From a virus, in the IMG/VR virus record IMGVR_UViG_3300043398_000349, positions 1 to 35,052 of that record: a stretch of DNA of 35,052 nucleotides, one strand, 5' to 3'. The notes beneath the pieces are model-generated. The model was not told the DNA's origin. It saw only the letters and a program-made list of their open reading frames with translations, and made no database searches. Within the stretch, counting starts at the first letter, position 1. Every line of letters starts with the position of its first letter. This document shows positions 591-33,450 of this stretch, in pieces. The translations under genes and the position numbers were made by a program.

Positions 591-840
591 GAGCCGCCCG
601 CTCATCGTCGATGTGAATCGGCTTGAACTTAGTCATGGCCTTGGCTTTCGGGGAAACTACTCCATCAAGAACCGTTTTTGGGATCTCGTATTTTGTCGGC
701 TCTCCATTGACATACATCCCCCGCGCCTTCCTCATCCCCCAGGCGATCATCACGATTCGGTGGATTTCGGCGCCGAGCAATCCTGCAAGGAAGCCTCCGA
801 TTGCAGACCCGATAATATATTCGATGAATTGGCTTTCCAT
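532..840 (-). CDS. Small single-span membrane protein, end of the sugar operon
   Basis: The 102-residue product has one hydrophobic segment near its N-terminus (about residues 8-34, including IIGSAIGGFLAGLLGAEI) followed by a basic cytoplasmic-type tail. It starts at an ATG preceded by GGGGGAAG. The start lies 91 bp inside the 3' end of the acetyltransferase gene, so the two overlap in different frames. No family is recognised. Size and topology would allow a holin or a membrane accessory of the sugar pathway, but nothing in the sequence decides this. It is the last gene of the minus-strand run. Confidence 0.5.
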   Translation of the reverse strand: MESQFIEYIIGSAIGGFLAGLLGAEIHRIVMIAWGMRKARGMYVNGEPTKYEIPKTVLDGVVSPKAKAMTKFKPIHIDDERAALIEERALKANQKKDPIFPI

Positions 841-1433
841 TCTTCCCCCAGGATATCGACGAAAATGGAGTCGATAAATTTTCCGCCTTTAAAATACGCG
901 CGGCGGCGTAAACCGCCCAGTTTGAATCCTAACTTCTGGTACATGTCCAGGGCTGGGTTACCAGCAAGGACTTCACCATAAATCATCTCAATCGGGTAGT
1001 GGGTGAAGGCATGTTCGAGGAGCAAGGAGAGAGCCCCCTTCCCAAATCCTAGACCCTGCAGCTCCGGAGCGATATAGAGGGAGAACTCTGCATTCGAGTG
1101 TCCGAATCTGAGAGATGTTAACCCCGCAACGCCTACGATGCCCTGGGGATTGATCGAACGGTCACCGATGGTGCCACGGATAGCATACATTCGGATAGAA
1201 GGATCATCGGTTTGCCGTTGAAACCAGCAATTCTGCTCTATATCACTGATAAAATCATTTTGACGACACCAGGAATAAATCCGGGGATCATTCCGCCATT
1301 TGCGAATGGTGGGAACGTCCGTTGAATCTAGCGGGCCGAGACTGATATCAAACTTTATTTGCGCATCATCTGCGCTTTCGGTGGAACTGGCATTTTCCCC
1401 TCCAACCGCACCGCTCCCGACTTGATTTTCCAT
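750..1433 (-). CDS. GNAT N-acetyltransferase, PseH-like
   Basis: This 227-residue protein is a GNAT-fold acetyltransferase of the PseH/RimJ-like type. An IRKWRNDPRI segment after the N-terminal extension resembles the WRN motif of sugar-amine acetyltransferases. IAPELQGLGFGKGALSLLLE is the acetyl-CoA binding motif (Q/R-x-x-G-x-G/A), and LAGNPALDMYQKLGF is the usual C-terminal GNAT strand-helix. In nonulosonic acid pathways this enzyme acetylates the amino group placed on the 4-keto sugar by the aminotransferase. The ATG has a good GAGGAG site, and the gene overlaps the 3' end of the aminotransferase by 79 bp. The first 25 residues are low-complexity (Ser, Ala, Gly, Glu) and contain one copy of the CCAACCGCACC 11-mer. 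GNAT is sure; the exact substrate is inferred from the operon. Confidence 0.8.
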   Translation of the reverse strand: MENQVGSGAVGGENASSTESADDAQIKFDISLGPLDSTDVPTIRKWRNDPRIYSWCRQNDFISDIEQNCWFQRQTDDPSIRMYAIRGTIGDRSINPQGIVGVAGLTSLRFGHSNAEFSLYIAPELQGLGFGKGALSLLLEHAFTHYPIEMIYGEVLAGNPALDMYQKLGFKLGGLRRRAYFKGGKFIDSIFVDILGEEWKANSSNILSGLQSEASLQDCSAPKSTES

Positions 1434-2584
1434 ATGATCTCCTCAAACGTTCTAAAGTGGGTATCCGAATCAAGTTCAGCCAACGGGAAGTTATAAAACC
1501 AGCTCGGACCAAAAAGAAAGCCCGCTTTGCAGGCCTCCTGCCAGAAGAGAGCGCGGAAATTCTCATCACCCTCGAAGGCGCCGCGCGTTGGATACCCCTT
1601 GATGCGGATCAGCTCCGGGCAGAGGGTATTGAACCGGTCGAGCCAGGCCTGGCCCTTGCGCCAAAGATCTGACATAGAGAAGTCCGGCTCGCGCAAGAGG
1701 GCCAGCAGCGTTAGGGCTTGAGTCATGGCCAGCGTTTCGCCGAAGAAGGTGCCAGAAACGAAATACTTTGGGTTATCCATGATGTCTTTGCGGCCGCCAA
1801 CGACCGAGATGGGGTGACCAGCGCCAAGGGCTTTCCCCAGGCAAATGATATCGGGCTGGATGCCCCAATAGTTTGACACCGACATTTTCGGGAAGCGGAA
1901 TCCGGTGATGACTTCATCGAAGATAAGAAGCGCGCCCAATCTGGTGCATTCAGCCCGAAGCTGCTGCAACCATTCTTTTCTACTTTCGGAATGATCGAGA
2001 ACTACAGGCTCAACGATGACAGCCGCTAGATTGTTATCATCGACGTACAAATCGAGAGAATCACCTTGGCGAATCGAACCAATGCGATATTCTTCGGCGC
2101 GACTCGCTGGGACCCCAGCGGCTGGCGACTGGAGCGAGATGAAATCATCACCCCAACCGTGATACCCCTCGGAGAGAATGTAGGTGTTCCCGGTATAAGC
2201 CCTGGCGATGCGAATGGCGGCGTTGCAGGCCTCGGTGCCGGTCTTGAGAAATTTGAGCCGCTCAATGCAATGGAACGTAGCCTGGAGTTTTTCCGCCAGA
2301 AGAACCTCGGTCTTAGTCGGTAGGCTGATGCTCTGCGCCTCTGATGCGTCCGCACCACGCATTTGTCTTGCGCCGTATCCAATGAGGTTTGTCCCCAATC
2401 CCCCGATGAAATCGATATAGGTCATCCCGTCTACATCTTGGATATAAGGCCCATGGCCAAAGATCGCAGTTTGGGGATAGACACCATCGATGAATGTGGC
2501 GGGACGCTTGGAGTTGGTCAAAGCACCTTGGGCGATGCAGTTGTTGCGGCGATCAATCCAGTTCTGCGCGGTCTCAGTCCTCAC
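1355..2584 (-). CDS. Class III PLP-dependent aminotransferase (glutamate-1-semialdehyde aminotransferase family)
   Basis: The 409-residue protein belongs to the class III (GSA/ornithine-type) aminotransferases. The PLP-binding aspartate lies in LIFDEVITGFRF (D223), and the Schiff-base lysine lies in CLGKALGAGHPISVVGG (K251). FLKTGTEACNAAIRIARAY binds the cofactor phosphate. Members occur in surface-sugar clusters beside SpsF/NeuA-type cytidylyltransferases, where they aminate keto-sugars; the tetrapyrrole role is unlikely here. The start is a GTG that overlaps the TGA of the upstream cytidylyltransferase (GTGA), which indicates translational coupling. Canonical pseudaminic acid loci use a DegT/AHBA-type PseC instead, so the exact product sugar is uncertain. 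Confidence 0.85.
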   Translation of the reverse strand: MRTETAQNWIDRRNNCIAQGALTNSKRPATFIDGVYPQTAIFGHGPYIQDVDGMTYIDFIGGLGTNLIGYGARQMRGADASEAQSISLPTKTEVLLAEKLQATFHCIERLKFLKTGTEACNAAIRIARAYTGNTYILSEGYHGWGDDFISLQSPAAGVPASRAEEYRIGSIRQGDSLDLYVDDNNLAAVIVEPVVLDHSESRKEWLQQLRAECTRLGALLIFDEVITGFRFPKMSVSNYWGIQPDIICLGKALGAGHPISVVGGRKDIMDNPKYFVSGTFFGETLAMTQALTLLALLREPDFSMSDLWRKGQAWLDRFNTLCPELIRIKGYPTRGAFEGDENFRALFWQEACKAGFLFGPSWFYNFPLAELDSDTHFRTFEEIIWKIKSGAVRLEGKMPVPPKAQMMRK

Positions 2585-3297
2585 AGGCGATGCACCTTTC
2601 TCTTGCCATACTTCTTCAGGGCAAGTGATTCGACCTTAGAGATTTTTGCCAGCTCCGACCGCGCTATTTCAAGGTCTTCTGGCGTGTCGACTGACAGCTT
2701 GATCGCCGAACGGTCAAAATAGCCTATTACGGCACCCATTTTGGCCCAAGCCGGCATGTCTCTGGTAATCATGGTCGTGACATGCTCGCGGTCATAAGTA
2801 GTTCTCGCCTTGTTATTAATCCAGGCGAGCATCGCACCGCTCATGACCTCGCAATCCAATCCATCCTCGCTTGATCGGCACTGAGGGTCGACATTGGATA
2901 CGTAGTCATAGCGATTCTTCACCGCGATAGAGATGACTTTGGAAATGACATAGTCTGGGATTAGAGGACAATCGCCAGTGATCCGGCATACGAAATCGGC
3001 CGGACCGTGTATGTCAACGGCTTTGGCGTAGCGCGACAGCACGTCCTTTTCATCTCCCTCGACAATATCCACCCAACCTTCAAATGCTCTCACCAAGGGG
3101 TCACCGTGAGGGCAAAGCAAAAGAACCTGCGGCCTGATCGGGGGGTTTTTGTAGGTCTGCGCAATATAGATCGCTGACCTTTGGCACGTCCTGATGACAT
3201 GCTCCATGATCGTCTTGCCGCCTAAAAGCTCCATATGCTTATTAGGAAACCTGACCGAGGTAGATCTAGCCTGGATGCCAATCAGGACTTTTGACAT
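2581..3297 (-). CDS. CMP-sugar cytidylyltransferase (SpsF/NeuA/PseF-like)
   Basis: The 238-residue protein is a nucleotidyltransferase of the CTP-using SpsF/NeuA/PseF group. The N-terminal signature is IQARSTSVRFPNKHMELLGG, in which the R-x-x-S-x-R-x-P-x-K nucleotide loop is visible. CRITGDCPLIP carries the metal-binding aspartate region, and LSVDTPEDLE near the C-terminus is the typical sugar-side motif. In nonulosonic acid pathways this enzyme activates the nine-carbon acid as a CMP-sugar. Its ATG overlaps the end of the oxidoreductase gene by 16 bp, and its stop overlaps the GTG of the aminotransferase. Family assignment is strong; the choice between NeuA, PseF and SpsF is not resolved. 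Confidence 0.85.
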   Translation of the reverse strand: MSKVLIGIQARSTSVRFPNKHMELLGGKTIMEHVIRTCQRSAIYIAQTYKNPPIRPQVLLLCPHGDPLVRAFEGWVDIVEGDEKDVLSRYAKAVDIHGPADFVCRITGDCPLIPDYVISKVISIAVKNRYDYVSNVDPQCRSSEDGLDCEVMSGAMLAWINNKARTTYDREHVTTMITRDMPAWAKMGAVIGYFDRSAIKLSVDTPEDLEIARSELAKISKVESLALKKYGKRKVHRL

Positions 3298-3965
3298 GCG
3301 TCACCTGCGGGGTATCTCGTCGCTTGTTCGAAGGCCGCCACTTTCTTGTGCGCAGAAAGAATTGCTTCCGGACCCCAGAGATTTGGGCCAGGAAATGGAA
3401 CGAGGAAAGTTTTCATCATGCGAATATATGAGAAATCTACCGAGCTTCTATGAACCCATTGCCCATTGATCTGGCATTGCCAAACGGGGCTTTCGTTTCT
3501 GAGATGCCATTCTCCGCGAGCAAGATAGATCAACTGGATGCAATCCCAATTGAGCCCGTCCCTACCGCTGCAGCAATAATCGTATGAGGTAACGCCTTCA
3601 TGGTCGGGTATCAAGTCAGTGAATGAATAGTTGTTGACCATGAATGTTCTCTCAGAGAGACAAACAAGATTGGTCATCAATTCTTTGTTATATTCGTCAC
3701 TAGCCTTGGCAATAGGTTTTTCACAGAGAATCGGGGTATGCTTATGGACACCCAAACGCAGCATCATCAAGTTAGTTAGGTGCTGGTCCGTTGGGGATGT
3801 AATGATTATGTGGCTCAGACTGCGATCGGTAAAAAACCCATCCCATACAGAGTCCTTCAACATCGGATCATAACCAACGCTATCAAACCCTAGATGCTTG
3901 CAAATGGCGGCATAGCGCCTACCCATGTTCCCTTCGGATCCGATGATACCTACCTTGATCGTCAT
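3282..3965 (-). CDS. Gfo/Idh/MocA-type NAD(P)-binding oxidoreductase, short form
   Basis: The N-terminal VGIIGSEGNMGRRY is a Rossmann G-x-x-G-x-x-G loop, and ILCEKPIAK matches the conserved E-K-P motif of Gfo/Idh/MocA sugar oxidoreductases. The protein has 227 residues, about 100 fewer than usual for the family, so the C-terminal substrate domain is reduced. It may be a compact or degenerate form. The ATG overlaps the TGA of the upstream SDR gene (ATGA), so it is co-translated within the sugar operon. Related enzymes sit in legionaminic and other surface-sugar clusters. The exact step catalysed is unknown. Confidence 0.75.
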   Translation of the reverse strand: MTIKVGIIGSEGNMGRRYAAICKHLGFDSVGYDPMLKDSVWDGFFTDRSLSHIIITSPTDQHLTNLMMLRLGVHKHTPILCEKPIAKASDEYNKELMTNLVCLSERTFMVNNYSFTDLIPDHEGVTSYDYCCSGRDGLNWDCIQLIYLARGEWHLRNESPVWQCQINGQWVHRSSVDFSYIRMMKTFLVPFPGPNLWGPEAILSAHKKVAAFEQATRYPAGDACQKS

Positions 3966-4882
3966 TGAAGGCCTTTCAGCGCTCGCTCGATGAGTGTCTT
4001 CAGTTCTTTGCGCGACATGATTCGGTCATCTTGGTTGGAGAAGACACCCCGGCCAAGAACACCATTCTGCTCGGTCTCGTACTCAGTAGCCATGCATTCA
4101 TGGTATTTTTCGCCGGGCCTTTTTCCGATAGGCTTGCCGATCTCGTAGATTTTCACGCCGAGGACTTCGGCGGTGGCCTCGATGAAATCCAAAATGGCAC
4201 TAGATCTAATCCAATGCGGTATTTGCAGACCGTATCTCTCACCATAACCGCTCGAAATAACAAAATCCCTGGCGTCTTCCACGGTCCACCAAAAGCGCGT
4301 CATCTTGTAGTCGGTGACCGGAGCGGGGCGTTTGGCCTTTAATGCTTCAACCAGGTCGTGAAAATAGCTCATTCTTGAGCCGATTACGTTGCCATAACGC
4401 ACGACGGTGAAATCTTCATGGGCGAGAACAAGTTTCTCAGCCATCGCTTTCGCGGTGCCATACGCATTGATCGGGTATGCGGCCTTATCAGTAGAGACGT
4501 GAATCAGCCTAGCGAAGGTCTCTTTCGCGAGCCGAATCATATTCTCAGTCCCGCCTACGATCGATCGGTGGGCTGCGTGCGGTTGGAGTTCGAGCGTATC
4601 GACGCATTTATAAGCGGCGAAGTGGTAGATCTGATTGAAATGATGCCCCTCCCAGGCTTCTGTGGCCTGGGTCAGTGATCGGTAATCGGTCACGTCGCCA
4701 AGGCGGAGGGTGAGGCGGCGATCTCTAGGCATAAACCTTTGCTTCTGCTCGCAGCGGGATATGCCCATGATCGAGACATTGGGACCGCAGTCCTCCAAAA
4801 GGCGCCGACAAACCGCACGGCCGAGCGTGCCAGTGATGCCGGTAATCAGAATCTTCTGATGACCATGCTCAGACAAATTCAT
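3962..4882 (-). CDS. UDP-sugar 4,6-dehydratase of the PseB/CapD SDR family
   Basis: This 306-residue extended SDR enzyme shows the NAD(P) loop TGITGTLG (residues 14-21) and the catalytic stretch VSTDKAAYPINAYGTAKAMA, with D132, K133, Y141 and K145. It also has the MTRFWWTVEDA segment typical of PseB, FlaA1 and CapD-type proteins. These enzymes convert UDP-GlcNAc to a 4-keto-6-deoxy sugar, the first committed step of pseudaminic and related acids. It is the first gene of a five-gene chain joined by short overlaps (dehydratase, oxidoreductase, cytidylyltransferase, aminotransferase, acetyltransferase). The ATG has an AGGAT site three bases after the preceding stop. Family assignment is strong; whether it also epimerises C5 cannot be read from the sequence. 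Confidence 0.88.
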   Translation of the reverse strand: MNLSEHGHQKILITGITGTLGRAVCRRLLEDCGPNVSIMGISRCEQKQRFMPRDRRLTLRLGDVTDYRSLTQATEAWEGHHFNQIYHFAAYKCVDTLELQPHAAHRSIVGGTENMIRLAKETFARLIHVSTDKAAYPINAYGTAKAMAEKLVLAHEDFTVVRYGNVIGSRMSYFHDLVEALKAKRPAPVTDYKMTRFWWTVEDARDFVISSGYGERYGLQIPHWIRSSAILDFIEATAEVLGVKIYEIGKPIGKRPGEKYHECMATEYETEQNGVLGRGVFSNQDDRIMSRKELKTLIERALKGLQ

Positions 4883-15579: not shown

Positions 15580-15852
15580 TTACCGGCCGAATACCGTGAT
15601 ATGGAGAAGGTCACCGGATGTTAGGCCCGACATGCCGATCACTCCGTATGACTGAACCCCAGACGCATTCGAGTTGATCGCAAAGTGCATGGAGGCGAGC
15701 GTCGTCGCAGAAAGAACCGCGATCCCGCCAATAAAGTCTACCTTCTGCAATCCGGTCTCGATGGCCTGCGTCGCAGCATCGGCGGTGATCGTCATGAATA
15801 CCGCTCTCTTGTTGCCGAAAACCGTGTTCTCGCGGCTTACCGTATAGGCCAT
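15580..15852 (-). CDS. Hypothetical head-associated protein
   Basis: A 90-residue protein beginning MAYTVSRENTVFGNKRAVFM and ending in a Gly/Ser-rich strand (GLTSGDLLHITVFGR). It is predicted to be mostly beta. It lies ten bases after the glycosyltransferase gene and fifteen before the next small structural gene. Position and composition suggest a minor capsid protein; no family is recognised. Confidence 0.55.
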   Translation of the reverse strand: MAYTVSRENTVFGNKRAVFMTITADAATQAIETGLQKVDFIGGIAVLSATTLASMHFAINSNASGVQSYGVIGMSGLTSGDLLHITVFGR

Positions 15853-15862
15853 GACTTACCCC

Positions 15863-16873
15863 CTAATAGAGAATCTTAAAGTCGTCTGTTTTCGGATTAT
15901 CGATCACCGATTGCATGTGGTTGCACATGCTATATCGATTCAGGAAATCTTTGAGATCCATTTGCTTGATCGCGGCGATGTTTCCATCTGGGTAGCTGCC
16001 TAGGCATCCGCCCTCGGTACAGTTGATGTACTCACCAGGAACCTGCTGCGCGACCCACTCGAAAAACGATTTGAAGTTGCGATACGATGGCCAGGTTTTG
16101 ACGCGGACGCCGTAAACATCCGTGAGATGGATCGCCTGGCCGATCTTCGCATCATATTGCGAATTCCAAGAGTGGAACTTCGAGTCATAAGAGAAGGAAA
16201 AGTCGGCGCCGAGAAATACGACCGTGGGACATCCGAGGAATGCCTTGGCGATATAGAGGCAAGCTCCGAGGACGTTTCCACCATTTGAAACGTGAATATT
16301 GAACTTCTCGATCTCGGCGAGCTGCTGCTGGATCCCAGCGTCTGGAATAGGGGCGTTAAAGAAAAGGATTTCACCCTGCCACTTTTCAAGAAGTTGTGGC
16401 CAAGATCCAGCATAAGCAAGAAGCGTTTTACCCTTGGTCTTTTCCCAGTAATCAGTCTCTGGATTGCCGCCTTCTGATACCTCATCAACGGTAATCGGTC
16501 CGCAATCCAGTGAGACGTAGTAGTCAACGCGAACCCCCAAATCTTCTAAGAAATGGAAGTTATGCAGACATGAAACGACCGGGATCTCCGCCGGAACATC
16601 CTTGAGCTGATGCGCGTTCTTCTTCAGAGAAGGACCTGAGCCAACCAGGATCGCTGTCTGCCCCAGGTGCTTCTTAAAGAGTTTAGCAATGGAGCGATCG
16701 GCGAAGGGTCCGAAGTGCTTCTGGTTGTGGCGATATTGATGGATCCAGTAATGGCGCCATGCATTGATCGTAACCTCATCATTTGAGGCCGCTTGGCGAT
16801 AGAGGTCGCCTTGCGCGATCGGTGCGTGAGGAATCACTGGACCATATTCAAGATTTATCGTCGCTTGAGCCAT
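15863..16873 (-). CDS. Maf/DUF115 (MptE-like) family protein, putative nonulosonic acid transferase
   Basis: The 336-residue protein has the core motifs of the DUF115/MptE-like family that includes flagellin Maf transferases. TAILVGSGPSLKKN (about residues 73-86) is the nucleotide-binding G-x-G-P-S-L loop. VRVDYYVSLDCGP follows, then VSNGGNVLGACLYIAKAFLG and VVFLGADFSFSYDSKFHS; EYINCTEGGCLGS is near the C-terminus. Maf proteins move pseudaminic or legionaminic acid from the CMP-sugar to Ser/Thr of flagellin. Here the gene lies directly after a decoration-type gene and the major capsid gene in the same operon. With the phage's own sugar genes, a role in glycosylating the virion is likely, but this is inference. 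Confidence 0.75.
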   Translation of the reverse strand: MAQATINLEYGPVIPHAPIAQGDLYRQAASNDEVTINAWRHYWIHQYRHNQKHFGPFADRSIAKLFKKHLGQTAILVGSGPSLKKNAHQLKDVPAEIPVVSCLHNFHFLEDLGVRVDYYVSLDCGPITVDEVSEGGNPETDYWEKTKGKTLLAYAGSWPQLLEKWQGEILFFNAPIPDAGIQQQLAEIEKFNIHVSNGGNVLGACLYIAKAFLGCPTVVFLGADFSFSYDSKFHSWNSQYDAKIGQAIHLTDVYGVRVKTWPSYRNFKSFFEWVAQQVPGEYINCTEGGCLGSYPDGNIAAIKQMDLKDFLNRYSMCNHMQSVIDNPKTDDFKILY

Positions 16874-16894: not shown

Positions 16895-17368
16895 TTAGTA
16901 AAGTCGTAAGAACGCTGTGCCGGATGCGCCGGAAGCGATGGCAGCCATCGCTTTCCCAAGAATCGGGCCTGCGGCGATCGTCGTCTGGGTAACGTGAGCA
17001 AACGTACCATCGGTGCCGATACCGATAGGCACACCAGCCGCCGCTGAGTTGTCAGCACCCATCTTGATTTCGCAGAACCCGCGCGTCATGAGCCAGCCAT
17101 AGGTGCCGGTCGTTAGCGTCACGTGCTTGCAAACGCCGACAGCGATATCCACGCTCGTCGTGCTAGAAACCGTCACAGAATAGCCAGAAACAGCCGAAAC
17201 GGTAGCTGCATAGGCCGGGTTAATCTGCGAGTTTCCTGCATTGTAAACATAGATGTACTGCTCATCGCCGACATGACGAAGCGATCCAACCTGCACGCTT
17301 GGAGTAGCGGTAACAGCGGAGATCGATTCCATGTAGACGGGCGTATTACCGAAATACTGCGTAGCCAT
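16895..17368 (-). CDS. Capsid decoration or head-stabilising protein
   Basis: A 157-residue, Ala/Gly/Thr-rich beta protein (MATQYFGNTPVYMESISAVT at the N-terminus, GASGTAFLRLY at the end). It lies 21 bp after the major capsid gene, which is the usual place for a decoration protein in phage head operons. Ser/Thr are very abundant (for example VSAVSGYSVTVSSTTSVD), which would give many sites for O-glycosylation by the next gene in the operon. The role is inferred from order and composition. Confidence 0.6.
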   Translation of the reverse strand: MATQYFGNTPVYMESISAVTATPSVQVGSLRHVGDEQYIYVYNAGNSQINPAYAATVSAVSGYSVTVSSTTSVDIAVGVCKHVTLTTGTYGWLMTRGFCEIKMGADNSAAAGVPIGIGTDGTFAHVTQTTIAAGPILGKAMAAIASGASGTAFLRLY

Positions 17369-17389: not shown

Positions 17390-18313
17390 TTATGCAGCCA
17401 ATGCCGTGAATTTGGCGTGCATGCGGTTGTTGGATGACCCCAGGTTACCCATCCACAGAACCCGCGCGATCTTGATCTGCTGATTCGTTGGCATTTGGAA
17501 CGGCTGGAATCGCATGTTCTGATTCGGGTGGTAATAGAGGTGCAAGAATTCCTCGTTGAGGAGGAATAAGTGCTGACTTGGGCACTTCGGCGACGCGATG
17601 AGCGGAATGCCGTTCAACATGATCGAGCTAAAACCAGCCTGCGCCGTCTTCGCATCCACAAATCGCTGCTGTGGCTGAAGGAGAGCATATGCAGAGTTGT
17701 AGATCGATCGCGTAGCCACGGATACCGTTGGGCTCTTGCCGTTCACCGAAAGCTGGTTGAACTTGGTCTGATACGCCGACAACGAGAAAGTTGTCGTCGA
17801 GCTGTCTTCCGTCGAAGCCCACCAGGTGTAGGTGCTCTGGCTAATGCCACCAACCGTGTTTCCACTGTCCACGATGAGGCGAAGACCACCGATATCCGAG
17901 GCGGTGGTGCCGGCTGAATAGAGACCGTCCTGGAGTGAGTCCTTCAACGACATCTCGGCAGCCATCACCTTGTTTTTCACAAAGTTGAGGACCTGCGAAT
18001 CACCAGAGTTTTTCAACTCATCGGCTTCGGTAACCGAGATATTCGCGTAGTAGTGCTTCCAGTTGAACTCGGCACTCGTGAACTGATCCGAATCGCTCGT
18101 GTCCAGGGTATCCGTTGGGTTGTATGAACCAACCGCACCGTTCACCGCGTACATGAGCGGTTGCATGATGGTGGTCCCGCCATTTTTCGACTCGTACCAG
18201 CCGCGATCTCGCGCTCGCTGCCAGAGCGGGTCGGAGTCAAAAATGTTATCGACGAGACGCGGGATATAGTTCTTCTGCGTGGTGGCAGAAATCTGGTCAT
18301 AGGTCAGAGCCAT
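17390..18313 (-). CDS. Major capsid protein
   Basis: A 307-residue protein called as the major capsid protein because it follows a scaffold-like gene and the portal gene and has the expected size. Features are an N-terminal arm (MALTYDQISATTQKNYIPRL), a charged segment rich in Thr/Asp (PTDTLDTSDSDQFTSAEF), and a C-terminal region with LLNEEFLHLYYHPN and the hydrophobic end MHAKFTALAA. The ATG has an AAGGAG site. A diverged copy of its first 48 bases occurs at 24787-24834 in front of the NeuB-type gene. One copy of the CCAACCGCACC 11-mer lies in its coding region (18129). The fold is probably HK97-like, as in other tailed phages. Confidence 0.8.
   Translation of the reverse strand: MALTYDQISATTQKNYIPRLVDNIFDSDPLWQRARDRGWYESKNGGTTIMQPLMYAVNGAVGSYNPTDTLDTSDSDQFTSAEFNWKHYYANISVTEADELKNSGDSQVLNFVKNKVMAAEMSLKDSLQDGLYSAGTTASDIGGLRLIVDSGNTVGGISQSTYTWWASTEDSSTTTFSLSAYQTKFNQLSVNGKSPTVSVATRSIYNSAYALLQPQQRFVDAKTAQAGFSSIMLNGIPLIASPKCPSQHLFLLNEEFLHLYYHPNQNMRFQPFQMPTNQQIKIARVLWMGNLGSSNNRMHAKFTALAA
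18266..18313 (-). repeat. 5' end of the capsid gene, duplicated at 24787-24834
   Basis: The first 48 bases of the capsid gene match 24787-24834 at 44 positions. The differences are the start codon (ATG here, TTG there), one third-position change and two first-position changes. Similarity stops abruptly on both sides. Confidence 0.9.
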
Positions 18314-18326
18314 TTCTCCACTCCTT

Positions 18327-19193
18327 TTAGTTTGGATTTAGTCCGAGATCTTTCAGTGAAGCCTGGTAGGCCTCTTCGTAGTTTCGCGCTGGTCGGAGAG
18401 GGGCTTGCTGCGAAGGGGCTGGTGCTGTGCCCAGTAGTCCTTGCTGGCGAGCCTTCGCCAATTCCTTGCGCTCCGCTTCTCTTCCACGCATCTCGTAAAG
18501 ATTTGCAAAATGCGGCTGGTAGTAGGCGTTGAAGGCGATTTCAAAGTCCTTTGCCGGGTCACCAGTATCGATCCGGTTATCCCTGGCAAATTTGAGGACC
18601 TGAAACTCCAACGTCTGGCCAGATTGATCCCGCGATTGAAAATCAATCCCGTGACGCTTTTGGATATTTCCGACAGCCTCTTGCAAAGAGGTATCAGCCT
18701 GCTTCGCGGCTTGCTCAAGCTTTTCCTGGTGCCATTGGGCTTGGAATTGCTTAAGCTCGCGCTGCTCATTCAGAAGGTTTTCAAAAACCGGCTTGAATTG
18801 CTCAGGCAGTTGGGAAAGCATCTGCTGCTGCTGAATCTGCTCGCGGTTTTTCCAACCGGAATCGACGTGTGCCCACCAATCTGGATTGCGGCGCGCAAAA
18901 TCATCCATTTCCTGGAAAGGACGAAATTTAGTTTCGAGATCAGCCTTTTGTTGGTTGAACTCGCTCATGCGCTGCGAGTAATCGTAGCCTTGACTCGCCC
19001 ACTTGAGCAGATCCTGCTCGTTTGCGCGGATCTGGCGTCCATTCCAGTTTAAATCCCAGGTTTTCTCTGGGGGAGGCGCAGGCGGTGCGGTTGGTTCCGG
19101 CGGAGGGGCTGCCTGCTCTACCGGTGCCGGTTCCTGTGGTGCGGCGGCCTCAGCCGCGAGGAGTGACTCTGCGCTCGGATATTCCTGGCCCAT
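18327..19193 (-). CDS. Scaffolding-like protein
   Basis: A 288-residue protein with a Pro/Ala-rich N-terminus (AAPPPEPTAPPAPPPEKTWD), a long Gln/Glu-rich helical centre (about residues 75-190) and a basic C-terminal end. This is the composition of phage scaffolding proteins, which fill the procapsid and leave it or are digested. It lies between the portal-side small gene and the major capsid gene, the normal place for a scaffold. The Pro-rich part includes a copy of the GGTGCGGTTGG motif (19084), antisense to the gene. Confidence 0.7.
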   Translation of the reverse strand: MGQEYPSAESLLAAEAAAPQEPAPVEQAAPPPEPTAPPAPPPEKTWDLNWNGRQIRANEQDLLKWASQGYDYSQRMSEFNQQKADLETKFRPFQEMDDFARRNPDWWAHVDSGWKNREQIQQQQMLSQLPEQFKPVFENLLNEQRELKQFQAQWHQEKLEQAAKQADTSLQEAVGNIQKRHGIDFQSRDQSGQTLEFQVLKFARDNRIDTGDPAKDFEIAFNAYYQPHFANLYEMRGREAERKELAKARQQGLLGTAPAPSQQAPLRPARNYEEAYQASLKDLGLNPN

Positions 19194-23433: not shown

Positions 23434-23689
23434 CGCTGTAGTCCTCTTCCTGCGATTCAGGCAGATACCAAGTCATAACCGCATTTGATGGCCTTATCCA
23501 ACAAGGAAGATTTTGTTGTTCGGATGGCCCCTTATTTAGGTTGAAAGATTCCTTGATCTCGTCCCACTTCTTGCACATAGCGACCCTGTGCCTTTTAAAA
23601 TCGGCCATAAGGGTGGCGCGAGATGGGCTCTCGATCATCATCGAGTCCTTGTCACCCTGATCGTTTATCCATGCGCATAGAACTTTCAT
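23351..23689 (-). CDS. Hypothetical protein following the NeuB-type gene
   Basis: A 112-residue protein starting MKVLCAWINDQGDKDSMMIE, with a helical middle and a charged C-terminus. Its ATG overlaps the TGA of the NeuB-type gene (ATGA), with GGAGG upstream, so the two are translated together. The last 28 residues overlap the next gene and are rich in Asp, Arg and Lys, so part of the tail could be nonessential. No function is recognised. Confidence 0.5.
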   Translation of the reverse strand: MKVLCAWINDQGDKDSMMIESPSRATLMADFKRHRVAMCKKWDEIKESFNLNKGPSEQQNLPCWIRPSNAVMTWYLPESQEEDYSDDKDRSRAADKNKAARDHQRRIAASDW

Positions 23690-24753
23690 ATCAGGTGGGC
23701 CTCCGTGATCGTCTCTCCCTGAATTACCGCCCTGGCCAGAGTGCGCCCTTCCGGTGATTTATCTGTTCCCCAGGATGATGCTGGTATCCCGTTCGCTTGG
23801 GCCTCTGTTGCATCCTTGGCCCGGAAGAATCCGTAGTTGCGGTCGATCTCCAGGACCGCGCCCATGGGCATGTCGCGGATCGCTTTGGCACGGGGGCGCA
23901 CTATATGGCGGAAATCTGCTTCCGATGGTGCCGGCTTCCATTCAAACGGCTGACGTATTGCATCAACCATTCTGCGGAAATCTTCTGGCGGAAGGCTATG
24001 GCCCGCGTCGGGGAGATCAGCGGCGTGCCAAGCCGCTGCACGTGCTCTATGGAAGAGCTGTTCGCAAATGAAGTGCTTCTCGATGACTTGCGCGTTCTTG
24101 GCTGCGAAAACAGGGACACCCAGGACATCGAGACTATGGTCGGAGAGGCCGATGTTATCCCCAAAGCTGAAATGGTGAGTCAGCATTCGCATCTTTCTCA
24201 GGTCATGGTCGAAGGATGGGTAAGCTGCGTTGCAGTAGAGAGTGAAGAAATCTAAATTACATATCTCATCCTTTCGGAAAAGAATGGCTTCCAGCTTATC
24301 CATTTCTTCTTCATCCAATCCACCGGCTGAGATGAAGAAGGGCTTGCCGAGCCTTTGCACGTGCTCTATGAGGCGGGTATTCGTATTGTCGCTCGACGCG
24401 ATCTTGTGCGCCTTCACATACGGATCTACCGCGTTGTAACCTTCAATGCTGAAGGCCGTGCACATGAAGTCCACGTTGCTGCGCTCGCAGTGCTTTGCAA
24501 GCTTTGGCAGCCAAAGAGGATCAAGAGCGTGCGGTTCGAGGTCCGTTTTGCCGTTGTCATGTCCATAACGATTACCCTTCGGCCCGTATAGATCGGCATT
24601 TGTAAATAACTGAAACTTAACAGCGTTAGCGCCAGCCAATGACGCTTGCTCGATCGACATCATGCAGTCGTCTAGCGTTATCCAATTCGATCCAACCTCT
24701 GCGATGATATATGGCTTTGCACTTAAGATTTTGCGGAAATGTTTGGATGACAA
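23686..24753 (-). CDS. NeuB-family nonulosonic acid synthase (PseI/NeuB/LegI-like)
   Basis: The protein has a NeuB TIM-barrel domain and a C-terminal SAF (antifreeze-like) domain. Motifs are YIIAEVGSNW, ANAVKFQLF, KIASSDNTNTRLIEHVQRLG, FFISAGG, GLSDHSLDVLG and AQVIEKHF. The SAF part reads VRPRAKAIRDMPMGAVL and ends EGRTLARAVIQGETITEAHL. These enzymes condense a six-carbon amino sugar with phosphoenolpyruvate to give the nine-carbon acid. The TTG at 24753 is preferred because AGAGGAG lies five bases upstream, giving 355 residues. The frame also extends to 24834 through a copy of the capsid N-terminus. The gene is 19 kb from the other sugar genes. Confidence 0.88.
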   Translation of the reverse strand: MSSKHFRKILSAKPYIIAEVGSNWITLDDCMMSIEQASLAGANAVKFQLFTNADLYGPKGNRYGHDNGKTDLEPHALDPLWLPKLAKHCERSNVDFMCTAFSIEGYNAVDPYVKAHKIASSDNTNTRLIEHVQRLGKPFFISAGGLDEEEMDKLEAILFRKDEICNLDFFTLYCNAAYPSFDHDLRKMRMLTHHFSFGDNIGLSDHSLDVLGVPVFAAKNAQVIEKHFICEQLFHRARAAAWHAADLPDAGHSLPPEDFRRMVDAIRQPFEWKPAPSEADFRHIVRPRAKAIRDMPMGAVLEIDRNYGFFRAKDATEAQANGIPASSWGTDKSPEGRTLARAVIQGETITEAHLI

Positions 24754-24786
24754 AGTGTCTCCTCTTGATTGTGGCTCCGGGTAAAA

Positions 24787-24834
24787 ATAGTTCTTCTGCG
24801 TGGCGGCAGCGATCTGGTCATAGGTCAGAGCCAA
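24787..24834 (-). repeat. Copy of the capsid gene 5' end, in frame with the NeuB-type gene
   Basis: This 48-bp segment matches the first 48 bases of the capsid gene (18266-18313) with four changes, one of which turns the ATG into TTG. It would encode MALTYDQIAAATQKNY if TTG is used, and it continues in frame into the synthase. The capsid gene's own ribosome site is not copied. It marks a past recombination or insertion event. Confidence 0.9.
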
Positions 24835-24837
24835 TTT

Positions 24838-25044
24838 TTAATTCCCTGTATGAATCAGCTTCAAGAGATCGTCTGGGCTCATCTCCACTTCCATCCTCTG
24901 ACCCCATCCGTTATCCACTCCTACGAAAACGATCCAGGTACTCTTCTTCTTCTCGTCCTGCACGATCCAGGCGATCGCGTCTGGGTTTACCCAGCAATCC
25001 ATGTAGACGTTAAGATATTTAACCTTTAGCTTTACCGCTTTCAT
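24838..25044 (-). CDS. Small hypothetical protein
   Basis: A 68-residue protein (MKAVKLKVKYLNVYMDCWVN at the start) with a beta-rich, Trp-containing middle (WIVQDEKKKSTWIVFVGVDN) and a short C-terminal helix. It is directly abutted by the stop of the small-terminase-like gene on one side and lies three bases before the capsid-gene copy on the other. No family is recognised. Confidence 0.5.
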   Translation of the reverse strand: MKAVKLKVKYLNVYMDCWVNPDAIAWIVQDEKKKSTWIVFVGVDNGWGQRMEVEMSPDDLLKLIHTGN

Positions 25045-33274: not shown

Positions 33275-33450
33275 TTGATTACGGGTACGGGTACGGGTAC
33301 GGGTCCGGGTACGGGTACGGGTACGGGTACGGGTACGGGTCCGGGTACGGGTCCGGGTACGGGTCCGGGTACGGGTCCGGGTACGGGTCCGGGTACGGGT
33401 ACGGGGACGGGTACGGGTACGGGTCCGGGGACGGGTCCGGGGACGGGTGA
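33262..33450 (+). CDS. Possible Tyr-Gly/Ser-Gly repeat peptide across the hexamer array
   Basis: The ATG at 33262 overlaps the DUF6948-like gene in another frame and opens a 62-codon frame made almost entirely of YG and SG dipeptides. It ends in TGA one base before the stop of the convergent minus-strand gene. No ribosome site is visible. It may be a translated low-complexity peptide, but the frame could equally be a by-product of the repeat, because a period of six keeps all six frames largely open. Confidence 0.25.
   Translation: MAGVVDYGYGYGYGSGYGYGYGYGYGSGYGSGYGSGYGSGYGSGYGYGDGYGYGSGDGSGDG
33283..33450 (+). repeat. Hexanucleotide array GGGTAC/GGGTCC, 27 units, G-quadruplex-like
   Basis: From 33283 to 33444 the plus strand is 27 consecutive hexamers, mostly GGGTAC, with interspersed GGGTCC and a few GGGGAC near the right end. 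Runs of three or more G recur every six bases with three-base loops, which meets the definition of a G-quadruplex motif many times over. It fills the junction between the converging early (plus) and lysis (minus) operons. No other element of this kind is seen in the window. Confidence 0.97.

Follow-up and report, generated by a model that had tools for sequence, protein, structure and literature searches.

A phage gene set predicted to make a CMP-nonulosonic acid, with a Maf-like transferase gene beside the capsid gene

We examined a window of 35,052 bases, i.e., a single IMG/VR virus record taken at its full length, and found within its late gene block a glycosylation set of seven genes at three places: an operon of five genes, a gene for a NeuB-family nonulosonic acid synthase, and a gene for a Maf-like glycosyltransferase situated two genes after that for the major capsid protein. 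It appears to us rather probable that this phage makes a CMP-nonulosonic acid, perhaps best described as pseudaminic-like, and puts it on a protein of its own virion. Direct observations are the genes with their conservation and co-occurrence, and the fold predicted for the transferase. The original prediction had proposed a phage-borne set of nonulosonic acid type that frees the phage from host supply; the set was upheld, but full independence from the host is not supported, because a hydrolase to release the sugar was absent from every relative examined. The Maf-like transferase (15863–16873), which suggests where the sugar goes, had been overlooked.

The operon and the synthase

The late genes occupy the minus strand in the order terminase, portal, capsid, tail-like genes and, last, the operon (750–4882, minus strand). 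Its five overlapping ORFs encode, in the order of transcription, a dehydratase (3962–4882), a Gfo/Idh protein (3282–3965), a cytidylyltransferase (2581–3297), an aminotransferase (1355–2584) and a GNAT acetyltransferase (750–1433). The chain of overlapping genes was present as predicted, with the third and fourth genes exchanged relative to the original listing (the cytidylyltransferase precedes the aminotransferase), and it recurred in the same order and with conserved catalytic residues in 31 further IMG/VR contigs, which include near-duplicates such as G019/G020. The relatives often carry the operon behind the same tail-fibre-like gene. Elsewhere in the window, about a dozen 12-nt repeats of the type CGGGTACGGGTC form an array at 33282–33448.

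Pfam matches agreed with the predicted domains for each protein, that of the Gfo/Idh protein just by way of a family profile and a model. The dehydratase is a PseB/FlaA1/CapE-type UDP-GlcNAc 4,6-dehydratase (PF02719, Polysacc_synt_2, 7e-49), of the inverting type by best match; its best NCBIfam model was TIGR03589 PseB (144 bits vs a cut-off of 408), and its nearest solved enzymes were inverting ones (4j2o, 5e-35; 2gn4 FlaA1, 7e-31), the retaining-type WlaL matching at just 4e-17. Residues T131, D132, K133, Y141 and K145 are kept across 32 phage copies. The window copy deviates at two otherwise conserved positions and sits on a very long branch; the tree was a quick one with long branches and was excluded from the argument on origin. 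The second protein (227 aa) belongs to a phage-specific family and gave a weak Gfo/Idh match from its single sequence (Pfam, 2.4e-3, under the cut-off), but the family profile matched Gfo/Idh enzymes in the PDB at 3e-11. Its predicted structure (pLDDT 80.6) aligned over 212 residues to 3euw with Z 18.3 and is a complete Gfo/Idh/MocA fold in small, with a Rossmann domain and a C-terminal sheet domain; E82-K83-P84 (the EKP motif), D141 and H206 are conserved across 42 copies.

The cytidylyltransferase is of SpsF/KdsB type (PF02348, CTP_transf_3, 2e-15; in profile search 6oew cytidylyltransferase, 5e-26, and also KdsB) and presumably activates the sugar with CMP. The aminotransferase did not match the PseC family in Pfam, NCBIfam or PDB profile searches and is of class III instead (PF00202, Aminotran_3, 2e-34), with GSAM (6w80, 4e-40) as its nearest PDB match; the PLP lysine K251 is kept across 40 copies, and the enzyme probably takes the PseC role. 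The GNAT N-acetyltransferase (PF13302, 3e-13) is PseH-like, matching TIGR03585 PseH at 2e-16 (60 bits of the 93 needed); in the PDB it matched SpeG (1e-12) and PseH (4xpk, 1e-5).

The synthase gene (23686–24834, minus strand; PF03102, 2e-37, over the cut-off) lies upstream of the large terminase gene, and its probable start is a TTG at 24753, after AGAGGAGA. Profile search placed PseI (8h2c, 7e-18) as its nearest solved relative, followed by SpsE (1vli, 4e-15), and the metal and PEP ligands K46, K117, H206 and H227 are conserved. The window copy bears an 11-aa insert after EKHF, adjoining the metal-binding motif; the DNA of the insert resembles a second stretch of the same gene (24022–24051 vs 24341–24370, 30 nt, 87% identical), the two copies being read in different frames. 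Immediately upstream, at 24787–24850, there is an in-frame 64-nt near-copy (54/64) of the start of the window's capsid gene (18266–18329), absent from the NeuB genes of relatives; this could represent a recombination scar, or it could supply a capsid-like N-terminal tag. Given the insert and the long PseB branch, the operon/NeuB copy in this window may be impaired; the conclusion at the level of the family is independent of its activity.

Two relatives that overlap each other's ends and appear nearly complete (G019 and G020) have Maf-like proteins and four operon proteins 98–100% identical, GNAT proteins 94% identical and NeuB proteins 79% identical, with the middle of NeuB far below that overall value. 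This looks like an allele swap, and the swap may change the sugar that is made. A search of phage and viral collections with NeuB alone found almost nothing, because NeuB is too divergent.

The proposed route and the missing hydrolase

The steps are assigned from enzyme family; every reaction is an inference, as are the product, its acceptor and any benefit to the phage. The PseB-type enzyme would form a UDP-4-keto-6-deoxy-HexNAc, which the class III aminotransferase would aminate at C4 and the GNAT protein would acetylate; the sugar would then leave UDP, a release for which the set holds neither PseG nor NeuC. NeuB would condense the free sugar with PEP to a nine-carbon acid, the SpsF-type enzyme would convert this acid to its CMP derivative, and the Maf-like protein would attach it to Ser/Thr residues in the product of an adjoining virion gene, either the capsid protein or its small neighbours. 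A pseudaminic-like product is favoured over a legionaminic one because the closest relatives of the dehydratase are C5-inverting enzymes. Points against this route include the lack of PseG/NeuC, the lack of any equivalog pass, the presence of pterin kinases within PF01973, and the Maf-like gene in a relative that lacks the pathway.

Comparison of the proteins with HMMs of the Pse, Leg and Neu families, which had been suggested as a check, returned PseB, PseH and NeuB-family matches, but no protein of the set reached the equivalog cut-offs of the PseB, PseH, PseF, PseI or NeuB models, so the pathway is not the textbook one. By family, the proteins would account for dehydration, amination, acetylation, condensation with PEP and activation with CMP. 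Relative to the canonical CMP-pseudaminic acid pathway (PseB-C-H-G-I-F), the phage has homologues of PseB, PseH and PseI, and its cytidylyltransferase and aminotransferase fill remaining roles; it differs in having no PseG, a class III enzyme in place of PseC, an SpsF type in place of PseF, and an extra Gfo/Idh protein. The legionaminic pathway of the Bacillus subtilis sps genes (PMC7439481) shares SpsF/SpsE-type enzymes, a dehydratase of the same superfamily and a GNAT; the phage, in contrast, uses a class III enzyme for SpsC, has no SpsG, and has a dehydratase whose best matches are inverting.

The absence of a PseG-type hydrolase from the window, which had been anticipated, was borne out with TIGR03590, and neither PseG nor a NeuC/LegG hydrolysing 2-epimerase (PF02350) was detected in the window plus 35 relatives, these virus records being possible fragments, although G019 and G020 seem close to complete. 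Cells show the same gap. In cells, related SpsF genes frequently lie within clusters of the PseB/SpsF/aminotransferase/NeuB kind; one in Neptuniibacter caesariensis (L117), of the Maf-dependent flagellin glycosylation type, reads fliD-Maf-PseB-aldo/keto reductase-SpsF::aminotransferase fusion-SDR-NeuB (the labels fliD, reductase and SDR were assigned by eye), and thus shares Maf, PseB, SpsF, a class III aminotransferase and NeuB with the phage in one locus, the phage having its mini Gfo/Idh in place of the aldo/keto reductase or SDR. A search of the N. caesariensis genome did not find PseG. A class III aminotransferase occurs also in the Maf-dependent flagellin islands of Aeromonas (FGI group I) and Shewanella (sfm/Maf), and PseG is reported to be absent from Aeromonas subgroups ID and IE, which have that aminotransferase (PMC7874193). 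Since the gap in the phage set is found alike in Neptuniibacter and Aeromonas cells, it is a wider one and no accident of this window.

It is conceivable, though we rate it as quite doubtful, that the mini Gfo/Idh protein itself replaces PseG: an NAD-dependent oxidation-elimination of the kind used by GH109/GH188 glycosidases would free the sugar from UDP and make the route self-sufficient. The NAD-dependent glycosidases 8qc5 and 8qc2 were among its structural matches, as they would be in any Gfo/Idh search. In the Asp-x3-His motif, which was placed by hand after inositol dehydrogenase, Asp141 is kept and the +4 residue is mostly Ile/Leu/Val; the usual catalytic histidine seems to be lost. Were such release to occur, six enzymes would carry out six steps to a CMP-nonulosonate by chemistry of a new type, and the virion would end up coated with nonulosonic acid.

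We also weighed whether the product is some other acidic or amino sugar, with NeuB and the KdsB-like SpsF enzyme using another aldose. The cytidylyltransferase is closer to KdsB-type models than to PseF, the aminotransferase is nearest GSAM, PseC, PseG and NeuC are all absent, and the NeuB of some relatives lacks much of the C-terminal region, each of which would fit such a product. PseB, a PseH-like GNAT, NeuB and Maf together, however, fit a nonulosonic set, and PseI is the nearest solved relative of NeuB; moreover, SpsF of B. subtilis belongs to the legionaminic acid route (PMC7439481) and a class III aminotransferase stands among the Aeromonas pse genes (PMC7874193). Another sugar is accordingly held to be improbable, and a nonulosonic acid is retained as the preferred product.

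The Maf-like transferase beside the capsid gene

The transferase gene (15863–16873, minus strand) encodes a Maf/PseD-like protein with PF01973 at 2e-21, over the cut-off, and a PseD domain at 3e-8 against the PseD/Maf model. An AlphaFold model built from 24 phage homologues (pLDDT 93.6, pTM 0.92) was compared with the PDB by Foldseek; the best match was the Magnetospirillum Maf (5mu5, E 1.4e-9), with human ST8SiaIII and an archaeal HPPK ranking next. 5mu5 was likewise the sole clear PDB match of the sequence profile (9e-4), and the Neptuniibacter Maf was matched by hhalign at 8e-7. PF01973 and the model thus indicate a central Maf_flag10 domain with a sialyltransferase-like fold, and the central Maf domain is known to resemble the sialyltransferase Cst-II (PMC11339370). 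The protein is presumed to be a CMP-nonulosonate:protein transferase acting on Ser/Thr. It has neither of the helper domains, N-terminal and C-terminal, that flank this domain in bacterial Maf, its 336 aa aligning just to residues 238–513 of 5mu5.

The Pfam name of PF01973 is MptE-like, and an archaeal HPPK was the second structural match (pterin kinase 8sd5, Z 14.7), so the protein might be a pterin or other kinase-like enzyme apart from the operon, leaving the phage with only a soluble sugar nucleotide. We judge this very improbable: upon realignment Maf scored Z 21.9 over 238 residues, 7 Z units better, and was alone in giving a clear sequence-profile match; the CMP-sialyltransferases CstII/ST8SiaIII matched as well (Z about 9 to 10), and the gene co-occurs with CMP-sugar genes. 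PHROGs gave no name for the protein. Many phage proteins annotated as MptE-like (BFVD A0A0F7L3H2, A0A6J5PG89 and others) also match the model, and these may be glycosyltransferases under a misleading name.

Candidate acceptors are the major capsid protein (17390–18313, minus strand; NF033394, 1.5e-73, over the cut-off), a small Ser/Thr-rich (21%) protein encoded between the capsid and transferase genes (16895–17368, minus strand), and a small conserved protein (20% Ser/Thr) encoded directly 3' of the transferase (15580–15852, minus strand). The profile of the 16895–17368 protein matched nothing useful in the PDB or PHROGs. The order capsid gene, small gene, Maf-like gene is kept in nearly all relatives, with the small 3' gene placed likewise in most, and a virion acceptor is preferred because of this position, the transferase having the capsid gene and the genes of both small Ser/Thr-rich proteins as neighbours in most relatives.

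If the pathway is real, its target might instead be the host, a surface glycan or flagellin being modified during infection, e.g., to block superinfection. Maf proteins act on flagellin (PMC11339370), and the nonulosonic acid genes described in phages, epaA/epaB and the O-acetyltransferases of Acinetobacter prophages, modify the host capsule (PMC12053666; PMC6586298). We consider a host target unlikely: the transferase stands among structural genes (capsid, small, Maf, small) in nearly all relatives, it lacks the terminal domains of the bacterial proteins (336 vs 632–667 aa), and late genes seem ill-timed for altering the host. The phage arrangement also departs from the Maf-dependent flagellin islands in that the set is split over three places, with a transferase of the central domain only lying beside a capsid gene instead of fliD/flagellin. 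The epaA/epaB prophages (PMC12053666) likewise encode nonulosonic acid enzymes, but these alter host-made pseudaminic acid within the host capsule, whereas the present phage has nearly the whole route plus a transferase for what we take to be its own virion.

Distribution, age and meaning

The phage family was recovered by searches with Maf, capsid, Gfo/Idh and SpsF. Of the relatives recovered with the Maf-like and capsid queries, 30/33 carried the Maf-like gene, two of the three lacking it being short fragments. When IMG/VR was searched with Gfo/Idh and SpsF alignments, neither Maf nor NeuB being used as query, many more came up, among them the 31 contigs with all five genes in order. The contigs of at least 30 kb had NeuB in 27/27, which supports the synthase as part of the set, as does its place within the operon of L203 and of L204, and the Maf-like gene in 26/27, vs 12/29 control viral contigs with only a distant SpsF (Fisher p 8e-6, which overstates the significance since the phages share ancestry, lineage was uncorrected, and 26/27 partly reflects shared lineage). 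Five relatives (G002, G005, G073, G079, G096) keep the Gfo/Idh gene, relocated beside the terminase gene.

The aminotransferases form a single phage clade (support 100/100) apart from 33 other rows, as do the SpsF proteins (100/99) apart from 45 other rows. From these clades the operon is an old phage-resident module, so far as the trees tell; a recent cargo from a host was rejected, the clades being deep and phage-only. One long contig (G007) has no NeuB and no other operon gene than an aminotransferase-like ORF (L080:10140–11090) with IGAA in place of the PLP lysine motif LGKA, as expected for a relic of pathway loss; the Maf-like protein, a core gene, is present there, and it may use another donor. 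By tblastn, the Maf-like protein, SpsF and Gfo/Idh had no match among 50,697 isolate phages. The capsid and portal relatives came from mixed hosts and shared no more than about 31% identity, and so indicated no host. A different SpsF/aminotransferase/NeuB/PseB cluster was seen in three other viral contigs of 39–76 kb (L018, L019, L020); PseG was not found in the L018 and L020 records, and L018 additionally has PIG-L, formyltransferase, SPASM and PhyH-like genes (named by eye).

What is new is the combination of enzymes and not the enzymes themselves. Searches of the open-access literature did not turn up a phage that combines a full nonulosonic acid pathway with Maf, which is weak evidence of absence, and the phage genes for nonulosonic sugars described there edit host glycans. 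The single-domain phage protein would provide a minimal Maf for study; release of the sugar without PseG, a gap shared with bacterial flagellar clusters, would become testable; and phage PF01973 proteins labelled MptE-like pterin kinases merit re-examination as glycosyltransferases. An uncultured, podovirus-like phage family seems to have retained two abilities as a near-core trait, the making of a sialic-acid-like bacterial sugar and its transfer, by a flagellin-type transferase, to the family's own particle. If true, this would be virion self-glycosylation with a charged sugar, from which we would infer a benefit such as altered adsorption or protection of the particle.
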